Source: a virus
Length of the DNA stretch: 23,135 nt
Virus record (IMG/VR): IMGVR_UViG_3300029448_000066
Span: 24,065-47,199 of that record
Direction: 5' to 3' (one strand)
Shown here: positions 20,753-23,135 of the stretch, piece by piece
Numbering within the stretch: the stretch's first letter is position 1
Layout of the letters: every line of letters begins with the position of its first letter
Made by a program: the position numbers and the translations under genes
Notes under the pieces: generated by a model
Database searches by the model: none
Told to the model about the DNA's origin: nothing
What the model saw: the letters and a program-made list of their open reading frames with translations, nothing else

Positions 20753-20956
20753 ATGGAACTAGATGAAAACATTATGCAGACTAAAACAGTCGGGCAGATA
20801 TGTGAAGTGATAGACGAGGCTATGGATGATATGCATCCGTATTCTTATGGATTTAAAAAGTTTAAAGAGATTATAGCAAAAAGAAAACGTGCTATGAATC
20901 TATTAGGGTCTTATGCAGTAAATAAAGGTCCAGCTAGGAGTGGCAAAAATGAGTGA
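20753..20956 (+). CDS. Small helical protein, 67 residues
   Basis: ATG 20753 follows GGGAGATTT. The sequence has an acidic first helix (QICEVIDEAMDDMHPYS) and a basic second helix (KKFKEIIAKRKRAMNLLGSY), and ends polar. It overlaps the start of the next gene by 8 bases. No family is recognised. Confidence 0.65.
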   Translation: MELDENIMQTKTVGQICEVIDEAMDDMHPYSYGFKKFKEIIAKRKRAMNLLGSYAVNKGPARSGKNE

Positions 20957-21188
20957 TGCGGCTTATGTCGTGTTCATCTCCCTTAAGGAGGAGGGGAAGG
21001 TCGTTGATCATCCCCTTGCTCCGCTTGATACAGAGATGGAAGCACGAGCATATAGAGATGGATATATTGATGCTATAGTTAATCACACTGAAAGAAGTGA
21101 TAGAGCTCAAGTATTCGGACTCTTTGGAATTAAAAGAGTTGGAGAAGAATTAGTAACTAATAACAAAAAAGAAGAAGGAGATGAATAA
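20949..21188 (+). CDS. Small protein, 79 residues, upstream of the beta-grasp gene
   Basis: ATG 20949 is preferred over the GTG at 20940, since AGGAG touches the GTG but is 8 bases from the ATG. The sequence has a beta-like start (SDAAYVVFISLKEEGKVVDH), then a helix (MEARAYRDGYIDAIVNHT) and a strand-like segment before a Lys/Glu-rich tail. The first 120 bases are about 49 percent GC, higher than the rest, which may mark a different origin. It overlaps the next gene by one base (TAATG). Function unknown; it could belong to the beta-grasp cluster. Confidence 0.6.
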   Translation: MSDAAYVVFISLKEEGKVVDHPLAPLDTEMEARAYRDGYIDAIVNHTERSDRAQVFGLFGIKRVGEELVTNNKKEEGDE

Positions 21189-21415
21189 TGCCTGATATTA
21201 AAATACTAGAAGGTGGTGGATTTGTAGACCATAGTGTCTCATCTACTACTGTCGGTGGACTCAAGTCAGAGAAAAATATACCTGCTGGTGCAGCAGTTTC
21301 TGTCGGAGGAAGAACAGTCAACGATGATCATCCAATAAGTGATGGTGATTTGGTGGCTGCAGTGCATAATGATAAGACTGGTGGTCTTTATTTAACACCA
21401 TTGCTAAATAAATAG
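21188..21415 (+). CDS. Beta-grasp (MoaD/ThiS/ubiquitin-like) protein, 75 residues
   Basis: After two short strand-like segments, residues 20-66 follow the MoaD/ThiS plan: TTVGGLKSEKNIPAGAAVSV, then GGRTVNDD, then ISDGDLVAAV and finally a Gly-Gly at 65-66 in DKTGG. The 'V-x-V-x-G-x-x-V-x-D-x-x-L/I-x-DGD-x-V' pattern is typical of these sulfur-carrier and ubiquitin-like folds. Unlike ThiS or MoaD it continues nine residues after Gly-Gly (LYLTPLLNK), so it would need cleavage to expose the diglycine. It starts at ATG 21188 with AAGGAG and sits before a zinc ribbon and a possible E2-like protein. The fold is likely; the role is inferred. Confidence 0.6.
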   Translation: MPDIKILEGGGFVDHSVSSTTVGGLKSEKNIPAGAAVSVGGRTVNDDHPISDGDLVAAVHNDKTGGLYLTPLLNK

Positions 21416-21431
21416 CCAGTTTGATCACGCT

Positions 21432-21463
21432 TAGGGGTCAGTTATAGCCATTTCTGGCCCCTA
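21432..21463 (+). terminator. 10-bp inverted repeat between beta-grasp and zinc-ribbon genes
   Basis: TAGGGGTCAG (21432-21441) pairs with CTGGCCCCTA (21454-21463) with one G-U pair and a 12-base loop. A run of U does not follow. It may be a weak terminator or an mRNA stabiliser in the otherwise tight cluster. Confidence 0.5.
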
Positions 21464-21481
21464 TAAATTAAGGAGATGAAT

Positions 21482-21676
21482 ATGATAGTTAATAGTGAAA
21501 GAACACATGATTGTCCTGATTGTGGACTAGATGGAACAGTAATAGAAGTAGAATTTTCTAATGGATATGCTGCTCCTACTGGCACGCCTGGAATAATGTG
21601 TCACGTTTGTAATTTTAAATTAAGTATAGAAGAAATGGAAGGAGACGACAATTGGCATCAAGTTATAACGTTATAG
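21482..21676 (+). CDS. Small zinc-ribbon protein, 64 residues
   Basis: ATG 21482 is preferred over ATG 21476, because AGGAG (21471-21475) touches the first. Residues 11-14 (CPDC) and later CHVC form two CxxC knuckles about 30 residues apart, the typical layout of a zinc ribbon (treble-clef-like) that binds nucleic acid or protein. It overlaps the next gene start by 25 bases. Treble-clef and RING-type zinc proteins occur with prokaryotic ubiquitin-like operons, but no RING spacing is seen here. Function unknown. Confidence 0.65.
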   Translation: MIVNSERTHDCPDCGLDGTVIEVEFSNGYAAPTGTPGIMCHVCNFKLSIEEMEGDDNWHQVITL

Positions 21677-23135
21677 ATTCCTTTGAAAACTGGAATCCAA
21701 ACATTCAAAGCCTTGCAGATCGGCTATTAATAGGTCCGCAAAGAGATTTATTGGAAAAAGTTCAAAATCTAAACAATAGACATGGGTTAAACTTAAATAT
21801 AACAAGAACATATCGCTGGTCACCAGGATATATGGATCAAATTAAAGACTTTATGGTTGATAAATATCTACAAAAGCATATGAAACGTAAAATATCTACA
21901 TTCTTTAAGCAAATAGATGAGAAATCTTGGATGTTAAACGGTTTATCAAGAACATTAAATCAAATTGATAATACTATGGCAGAGAAAAGGAGAACTAGAG
22001 CTGTATTTCAAGATAATTCTGATATTATAGAGGATAGATGGGAGATATTACACAAAATAATAGTTAAAGAGACTAAAAAAGTCACAAATACTATGGAACA
22101 TATTCAATTTAATACAGAAGTTTTAGAATCTGAGAATCAAAAGACTGCAATATCATTTACATGGGCATTTCCAGAGATGGATATGAATATATTTGTAGGA
22201 CAAGAGTATTTTCCTGTAGAGATGGGTAAAGTAGAGGTTAATATCACGTTTGATATAGATGATTTAGTTACTCAATTATGTAATGATGGGCTGGTACAGT
22301 TTGTAACTATAGGTGATGATGAAAATTGTGGTATAAGATTTTCTAATTTATCTAGAGGAAGTAGCTATGGTAGAATAGCAGGATGGTATGAACCTAAGTA
22401 TATAGGTGGACAGTCTAGATTATTGCATCCATTTATTAGTGCTTATGCTAATGATATAAGAAGAATCGATGGTAATCCATTCACTAGTACATGTTTAGGT
22501 GATTTGACAGGGAGAATATGGTCTGAATTATCAGAGATGGACTTATTATCAGTAACATTAACACTTCAACAATGGTTGACAACGTTTAATGCTAGAGATA
22601 CTAGGCCATTAAATAATGTTAGAACAACTTTCTGGGGTTTACCAGAGCGACTTAATAATGATACGTTTCTTAATGTATATTCTATGAATCCAGATAGTTG
22701 TGGTTATCCTGATTCTGATTATCAGCATTATGAAAGTGGAGAAGAAGCTAGAGCAGCTGGATTTAATAATAGTTATTGCGATACAATCAATTGTGAATTA
22801 GCAGAGCATTGTGATTACTATAACTTTATTGAAGGAACTGAAGGTATGGCAACACCAGCAGAAGAACCATTAGCAGATGATCGAGATGCTGATAATATAC
22901 ATGGTGGTGAATATGCTCAAACACATACAGTTGATAGAGATGACGAAGCTGAGATTGAAGAAATTAATAGAGTCAATATAGAGAATGGCTTAGTTGATCC
23001 TGAAGTAACTGCTAATTATCAAGAAGAGATGGACAGGATAAATGGTGACGATCCAATGAGTGTTCCATTACCTGAAGATCCATTAACTGAAGAACAAATG
23101 TTAGAACAATTAATCAGACAACAATATCGAGTAAT
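21652..23135 (+). CDS. Long protein with a possible E2-like (UBC) segment, TTG start, cut by window edge
   Basis: The frame is open for 494 codons to the right edge. It starts at TTG 21652, which has AAGGAG seven bases upstream, and there is no other ATG, GTG or TTG back to the stop at 21616. Residues about 1-160 are helical and charged. Residues about 165-335 are beta-rich and contain RLLHPFISAYAND (H259-P260), then TSTCLGDLTG (C281), then SEMDLLSVTLTLQQWLTTFN. The order His-Pro, then Cys-Leu-Gly, then a helix resembles E2 conjugating enzymes and their prokaryotic relatives. The His-Pro to Cys distance is longer than usual. C350, C376, C381, H386 and C387 may bind metal, and the tail is acidic. 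Confidence 0.55.
   Translation, partial: MASSYNVIDSFENWNPNIQSLADRLLIGPQRDLLEKVQNLNNRHGLNLNITRTYRWSPGYMDQIKDFMVDKYLQKHMKRKISTFFKQIDEKSWMLNGLSRTLNQIDNTMAEKRRTRAVFQDNSDIIEDRWEILHKIIVKETKKVTNTMEHIQFNTEVLESENQKTAISFTWAFPEMDMNIFVGQEYFPVEMGKVEVNITFDIDDLVTQLCNDGLVQFVTIGDDENCGIRFSNLSRGSSYGRIAGWYEPKYIGGQSRLLHPFISAYANDIRRIDGNPFTSTCLGDLTGRIWSELSEMDLLSVTLTLQQWLTTFNARDTRPLNNVRTTFWGLPERLNNDTFLNVYSMNPDSCGYPDSDYQHYESGEEARAAGFNNSYCDTINCELAEHCDYYNFIEGTEGMATPAEEPLADDRDADNIHGGEYAQTHTVDRDDEAEIEEINRVNIENGLVDPEVTANYQEEMDRINGDDPMSVPLPEDPLTEEQMLEQLIRQQYRV

Follow-up and report, generated by a model that had tools for sequence, protein, structure and literature searches.

A candidate phage-encoded cassette for reversible ubiquitin-like conjugation, located beside replication genes

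Described ubiquitin-like systems and the phage cassette

The Bil system consists of a ubiquitin-like modifier (Ubl), an E2, a JAB-type deubiquitinase (DUB) and an E1, in which the DUB exposes the C-terminal Gly of the Ubl and phage tail proteins are tagged (PMC11354881). The same component types are common to Bil and to a four-gene cassette described here, which encodes a Ubl, an E2-like protein, a JAB protease and an E1 in that order, and which lies at the right edge of a 23,135-nucleotide window (the whole stretch of DNA analysed, positions 24065-47199 of the 48,950-base virus record IMGVR_UViG_3300029448_000066) and beyond it. We propose, with a probability of about three in four, that the cassette is a phage-encoded module for reversible ubiquitin-like conjugation. 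The gene families, their order, the putative catalytic residues and the co-inheritance can be read from the sequences, and the enzymatic steps are proposed on that basis. A protein-conjugation module had been suggested at this place by an earlier sequence-only reading of the window; the adjoining JAB and E1 genes and the predicted β-grasp fold of the Ubl support it, conjugation being the presumed activity.

The cassette differs in one feature or another from each of the described systems compared with it here. In Bil, BilA has two Ubl domains, BilD comprises an inactive (IAD) and an active (AAD) adenylation domain together with a Cys domain, and BilB carries a CEHH motif (PMC11354881), whereas the cassette has a single 75-aa Ubl, a 220-aa E1 with one ThiF domain and a long E2-like protein without CEHH at Cys281, and is borne by an uncultured phage; on the Ubl and adenylation-domain counts, assignment to Bil was rejected. 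Operon type 6d of Iyer, Burroughs and Aravind contains Ubl, JAB, E1, E2 and an alpha-helical protein, and type 6d/PRTRC resembles the cassette in its separate genes for Ubl, E2-like protein, JAB and E1 and in its small Ubl with a C-terminal Gly (PMC1779556). PRTRC had been the example chosen by the sequence-only reading, and this label was dropped because the scores are far under the curated cut-offs (E1, 26.9 vs 144.75 bits for PRTRC_ThiF; JAB, 14.6 vs 101.8 bits for PRTRC_A). Among the ORFs (open reading frames) flanking the module in the record, none was recognised as ParB-like or of the PRTRC_B type, no ParB profile search having been made. Phage-encoded Ubl and JAB are also found in the tail genes TAPI (Ubl) and TAPK (JAB-NlpC/P60) of lambda and T1, which occur without E1 or E2 (PMC1779556), while the cassette includes both an E1 and an E2-like protein and lies beside replication genes. 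The ubiquitin operon of Caldiarchaeum subterraneum likewise combines a Ubl, an E1, an E2 and an Rpn11-type DUB and differs from the cassette by a small RING E3, none of which was recognised here. The phage module is unreported in the open literature that was searched, so that prior notice is possible in subscription papers and supplements, and the main texts of the crAss001 paper and of the 2021 papers on crAss-like phages do not mention ThiF or ubiquitin.

The four core components

The core genes and the residues discussed below are as follows (window coordinates, unless the record is named).

21188..21415, + strand: Ubl modifier, 75 aa, a single predicted β-grasp domain with K-T-G-G followed by a 9-residue tail
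21380..21385, + strand: Gly65-Gly66 codons, predicted mature C-terminus of the modifier
21652..23135, + strand: E2-like protein, TTG start, 494 aa in the window and ~506 aa in the record, cut at a 10-N gap and at the edge of the window
22426..22431, + strand: His259-Pro260, putative counterpart of the E2 'HPN' motif
22492..22494, + strand: Cys281, predicted thioester-forming E2 cysteine
22699..22812, + strand: C350-x25-C376-x4-C381-x5-C387, possible metal site
record 47233-48099, + strand: JAB gene P0004, 288 aa, PF14464, outside the window
record 48100-48762, + strand: E1/ThiF gene P0005, 220 aa, PF00899, outside the window

The three ORFs singled out by the sequence-only reading, i.e., the 75-aa frame at 21188-21415, a 66-aa two-CxxC frame at 21476-21676 and a long open frame at 21652-23133 that reaches the edge, are present, as are its motifs Gly65-Gly66, His259-Pro260 and Cys281-Leu-Gly. 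Its 494-residue product corresponds to a real open frame but is not the full-length protein. These motifs exceed chance, because K-x-G-G occurs in 38/38 homologous Ubls as against the vicinity of the C-terminus in 2/635 other small ORFs of the same loci, and because Pro260, Cys281 and Trp308 of the long protein are invariant.

The AlphaFold2 (AF2) model of the Ubl has a mean predicted local distance difference test (pLDDT) of 81.4 and the order b-b-a-b-b-b, and its nearest structures in Foldseek are Mth1743, SUMO, NEDD8, ubiquitin, ThiS and MoaD (probability 1.00, best E 1.6e-3), which agrees with the fold that had been expected for the 75-residue protein. Pfam ThiS (PF02597) was matched by 18 of the 29 Ubl homologues at E ≤ 1 (best 1.9e-5), and the protein is predicted to be a β-grasp modifier of the ThiS/MoaD/ubiquitin superfamily. 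K63, G65 and G66 are invariant in all 29; the Gly-Gly is followed by no residue in 7/29 and by at most nine in 26/29. Since it is terminal or bears such a short tail in most homologues, the protein fits a modifier used as such or after trimming, with the Gly-Gly exposed, or exposable by proteolysis of a short, apparently cleavable tail.

The long protein was modelled at full length with AF2 from an alignment of 42 sequences (pLDDT 78.9), and the model has a helix at 123-147, strands at 152-201 that form a β-meander, Cys281 after a strand at 275-280, and helices at 283-294 and 298-310. Pro260 and Cys281 are invariant in 54/54 members, and in most members Cys281 is followed by L/F/M/T-G; Trp308 is another invariant residue of the family. 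Near-invariant positions include G28-P29-Q30, P319, N321 and the cysteines C350, C376, C381 and C387, each of the four being retained by 90% or more of the sequences in the alignment. This four-Cys cluster, a possible zinc or Fe-S site, is not seen in the E2 candidates of crAss-like phages introduced below. In BFVD the long protein matches well only six uncharacterised viral proteins, no detectable relative is encoded in the phage record collection, and the alignment has diverged too far for a degenerate-pattern scan. The HP(Y/F)...Cys pattern, together with synteny and the topology of the model, makes it quite probable that the long protein is an E2, and it and its relatives would be candidate new E2 families, previously unmodelled.

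The sequence-only reading had suggested looking to the right for a JAB and an E1 gene, and ORF and profile inspection of the record places both on the + strand directly after the window edge. The JAB protein matches Prok-JAB PF14464 with 27.2 bits against a Pfam cut-off of 25, its JAMM residues E28 and H89-x-H91-x7-S99-xx-D102 are invariant in 43 sequences, and Rpn11 proteins of both archaea and eukaryotes are among its profile matches. The closest solved structure is 6fjv (E 1.1e-5), a 26S proteasome RPN11-like protein which is taken to be CsRpn11 (PMC6043591). The E1 matches PF00899 with 72.5 bits (E 3.7e-20, cut-off 28.1), and G22-x-G24-xx-G27, D46, N54, K69, D110 and C171 are invariant in 46 marine sequences; C171, which aligns with the invariant Cys of the E1s from crAss-like phages and from Flavobacterium (Fpv) phages, is the predicted catalytic Cys. 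Profile matches of the E1 are MccB (top among solved structures, E 4.4e-11), UBA5, UBA6, ThiF, MoeB, Cap2 and BubCD. Genome contigs gave just two matches, remote ThiF hits in Bradyrhizobium, which therefore provide no clue to the host.

Inheritance, neighbours and related sets in other phages

The scan with the E1 yielded 218 relatives in viral contigs, 80 of which were kept, and in these, about 80 viral contigs, the order Ubl, E2-like, JAB, E1 recurs if the contig extends far enough. Of the loci that reach 2 kb or more 5' of the E2-like gene, 41/41 include the Ubl. Loci were also collected by the downstream primase-helicase instead of the E1, and among the 26 with at least 7 kb upstream all four genes are present in 13 and none in the other 13, with zero partial sets. 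In seven of the module-free records, which measure up to 54 kb and were searched from end to end, neither an E1 nor a JAB is present. The four module proteins have correlated pairwise distances (r 0.71-0.89), as shared phage ancestry would also produce. When the module-free loci were read, most were found to carry another gene pair 5' of Erf, whose products are marked by 'YQQGDV...GEVTGHTH' (~130-140 aa) and 'NPSTGE.H.EG' (~340-376 aa), neither with a Pfam match. This pair, a possible alternative cassette, never occurs together with the E1 (14 to 19 pair loci vs 101 E1 loci, 0 overlap). Judged by this distribution, the cassette is accessory and exchangeable, being inherited as all or none and alternating with the other pair in related phages. 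One phage with neither the module nor the pair encodes a DUF6878 protein, scoring just above the cut-off, at L154:6724-7332. The positions of the pair in four of its loci are:

L160:5963-7472
L157:4568-6098
L147:6045-7473
L111:6760-8180

A related set is found outside this group. When the E1 was used in tblastn, 78 phage records were recovered, mostly of Bacteroides crAss-like and Flavobacterium phages. In Bacteroides phage crAss001 (gp79-gp78-gp77-gp76) and other Steigviridae the order is a protein whose N-terminal region is Ubl-like, a candidate E2-like protein bearing HSH...C(L/T)G, a JAB and an E1, and the cassette order of Flavobacterium phage Fpv3 (Fipvunavirus) matches. The four crAss001 products are annotated as hypothetical, hypothetical, metalloprotease domain and thiamine biosynthesis ThiF.

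L093:3750-8160 (Bacteroides phage crAss001): set of Ubl-like, E2-like, JAB and E1 genes; also in L085, L086, L090-L092 and L094-L096

The crAss-like set lies between the primase and uracil-DNA glycosylase genes, i.e., in the replication region. The E1 of the crAss-like and Fipvunavirus phages is homologous over its full length to that of the cassette (HHalign E 1e-42), and both E1 groups share (I)D-G-R-(x3)-E-(x2)-Q and C-x2-K-x-T; the JABs align with E 2.5e-10 and have HxHx7SxxD in common, and the Ubl comparison gives E 7.6e-4 at a probability of only 20. The crAss-like Ubl-like region differs in that it ends in KK(I)KSG, not KTGG, and is usually followed by a long C-terminal extension; L092 (cr106_1) instead encodes it as a separate protein of 92 aa with KKIKSGKF at its end. 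The genes flanking the cassette are not alike either. In Fpv1 (L097:6011-6760) a LAGLIDADG endonuclease gene on the opposite strand separates two parts of the JAB gene, which is uninterrupted in Fpv3.

Next to the cassette lie Erf, primase-helicase and RusA, genes of early recombination and replication. Two further small genes accompany it in the window:

20949..21188, + strand: ~79-aa protein of the 'YVVFISLKEEGKV..HPL' family, ATG at 20949 (82 aa in the ORF list, which starts it at GTG 20940), overlapping the Ubl start
21476..21676, + strand: 66-aa protein, zinc-ribbon-like, ORF with two CxxC pairs

The 'YVVFISLKEEGKV..HPL' protein, which has zero Pfam or PHROG matches, is seen again 5' of the Ubl in the subgroup closest to the window (L004-L008, L011, L014, L018, L019) and not in the wider family, and the two-CxxC protein is found 5' of the E2-like gene in that subgroup, while in the majority of the remaining members the Ubl gene abuts the E2-like gene. 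Because both proteins are mainly confined to this subgroup, they are, by their distribution, lineage-specific accessories and not core components. A hairpin of ten base pairs with a small inner stem lies between the Ubl and CxxC genes at 21432-21463 (z -1.9; no T-run 3') and possibly tunes expression downstream of the Ubl. The right end of the record (L001) is an Erf-like start and its left end (L002) falls inside a RusA-like gene, so the record is probably a fragment cut within the replication region; the contig of a relative measures 54.9 kb.

Proposed mechanism, alternatives and biological meaning

According to the mechanism that we propose, the JAB would cut the short tail off the modifier behind Gly66, the E1 with ATP would adenylate the Gly-Gly C-terminus and then form a thioester at Cys171, and the modifier would be handed to Cys281 of the E2-like protein. 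Since no separate E3 was seen, the choice of the target is assigned to the extra N- and C-terminal domains of the E2-like protein, and the JAB may additionally take the tag off the target.

Several observations weigh against such a module. His259 is not invariant, since several E2-like members have Phe or Tyr at this position, although most have His. A UBC-like fold had been expected by the sequence-only reading for residues 165-335; the topology of the model fits and the top PDB matches in Foldseek are the UEV domains (E2 fold) of Vps23 and TSG101, but with E 0.68 and probability 0.21 they are non-significant and lend the fold weak support. The long protein matched no known E2 or Prok-E2 profile: scans of Pfam, PHROGs, NCBIfam and PADLOC gave no E2 model for it, no Prok-E2 or UBC family is among the Pfam matches listed for 42 members (the long protein and 41 relatives), and no E2 was returned by the PDB profile search with the long protein. 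Searches of the record and 289 bacterial genomes for Prok-E2_B and Prok-E2_D were also blank, which says nothing on absence, because the controls gave no match either. Aligned by HHalign with the E2-like protein of the cassette, the crAss-like E2 candidate gave nothing significant, only a short Cys motif. On the primase tree the all-or-none pattern needs at least two changes, and so it represents two joint events, not thirteen. The E2-like gene of the record, moreover, contains a scaffold gap; its frame crosses the 10 N and ends in a stop that overlaps with the start of the JAB gene. Relatives without a gap, L004/L005 (contig 3300030329_004935), confirm the join: in them Ubl, CxxC, E2-like, JAB and E1 follow uninterrupted, the E2-like gene of L004 being complete at 474 aa with the JAB next.

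The lack of an E2 profile match and the non-significant fold match would suit a long protein that is not an E2 at all but a substrate or a nucleic-acid-binding protein, with the E1 transferring the Ubl directly, as with SAMP or Urm1; this is considered unlikely, as the invariant Pro260...Cys281 stands in an E2-like arrangement, the predicted β-meander is followed by helices and UEV domains head the PDB matches. Less likely still is a sulfur-carrier module, in which the ThiF-like enzyme would thiocarboxylate the Ubl for thiolation of a metabolite or tRNA, the JAB would trim, and the long protein would be a sulfur acceptor or an unrelated enzyme. ThiS as the best family match of the Ubl, Mth1743 and MoaD among its structural matches, the ThiF/MoeB models matched by the E1 and the occurrence of Ubl, JAB and E1 sets without E2 in sulfur pathways (PMC1779556) all speak for it, but none of the genes beside the cassette was recognised as coding for a rhodanese, a cysteine desulfurase or a thiolation enzyme, the long protein with its invariant Cys281 is always present with the set, and the E1 matches include the conjugation E1s UBA5, UBA6, Cap2 and BubCD. 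MccB as the top profile match of the E1 among solved structures, together with the short C-terminal tails of some Ubls, could also point to peptide chemistry of the RiPP (ribosomally synthesized and post-translationally modified peptide) type, where an MccB-like E1 would adenylate the small protein and yield a modified peptide or a Ubl-nucleotide adduct instead of a protein tag. A small protein modelled as a folded β-grasp domain with a conserved GG, whose partner is a protease with an intact JAMM active site, as in Ubl systems, makes this very improbable.

Within the conjugation reading, the targets remain to be considered. Modification of host proteins for takeover or counter-defence is most likely, although it falls somewhat short of an even chance; modification of the phage's own replication proteins is appreciably less likely, and that of proteins of competing phages is less likely again. 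An early, host-directed role in infection is favoured because the cassette is accessory, exchangeable and placed beside Erf, primase and RusA. Phage-encoded defence against competitors (superinfection exclusion), by Bil-like tagging of incoming tail proteins, would be in line with the four component types that occur in Bil (PMC11354881) and with an accessory, swappable cassette; the single-domain Ubl and the minimal E1, so different from BilA and BilD, and the replication-region position of the related crAss-like set argue against it, and we regard it as improbable.

To our knowledge, the bacterial Ubl pathways that are as complete as this one (CBASS Cap2/3, Bil, Bub) belong to cells and are for the most part tied to anti-phage defence. 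A phage-borne set of such components reverses the question: what does the virus tag, and does the tagging serve counter-defence, host takeover or competition? Phage crAss001 is cultured on Bacteroides intestinalis, and thus the related set can be tested in a laboratory strain. Names are hereby offered for conserved crAss-like genes that are labelled 'thiamine biosynthesis' or 'hypothetical', together with candidate new E2 families. We lean slightly towards the broader view that several tailed-phage lineages, crAss-like phages of the human gut included, carry a complete pathway of Ubl conjugation and deconjugation with which proteins of the host or of rivals are tagged during infection. If this is true, a ubiquitin system run by viruses would exist in bacteria, and it would comprise E1s typical of phages and an E2 family that had not been modelled before.

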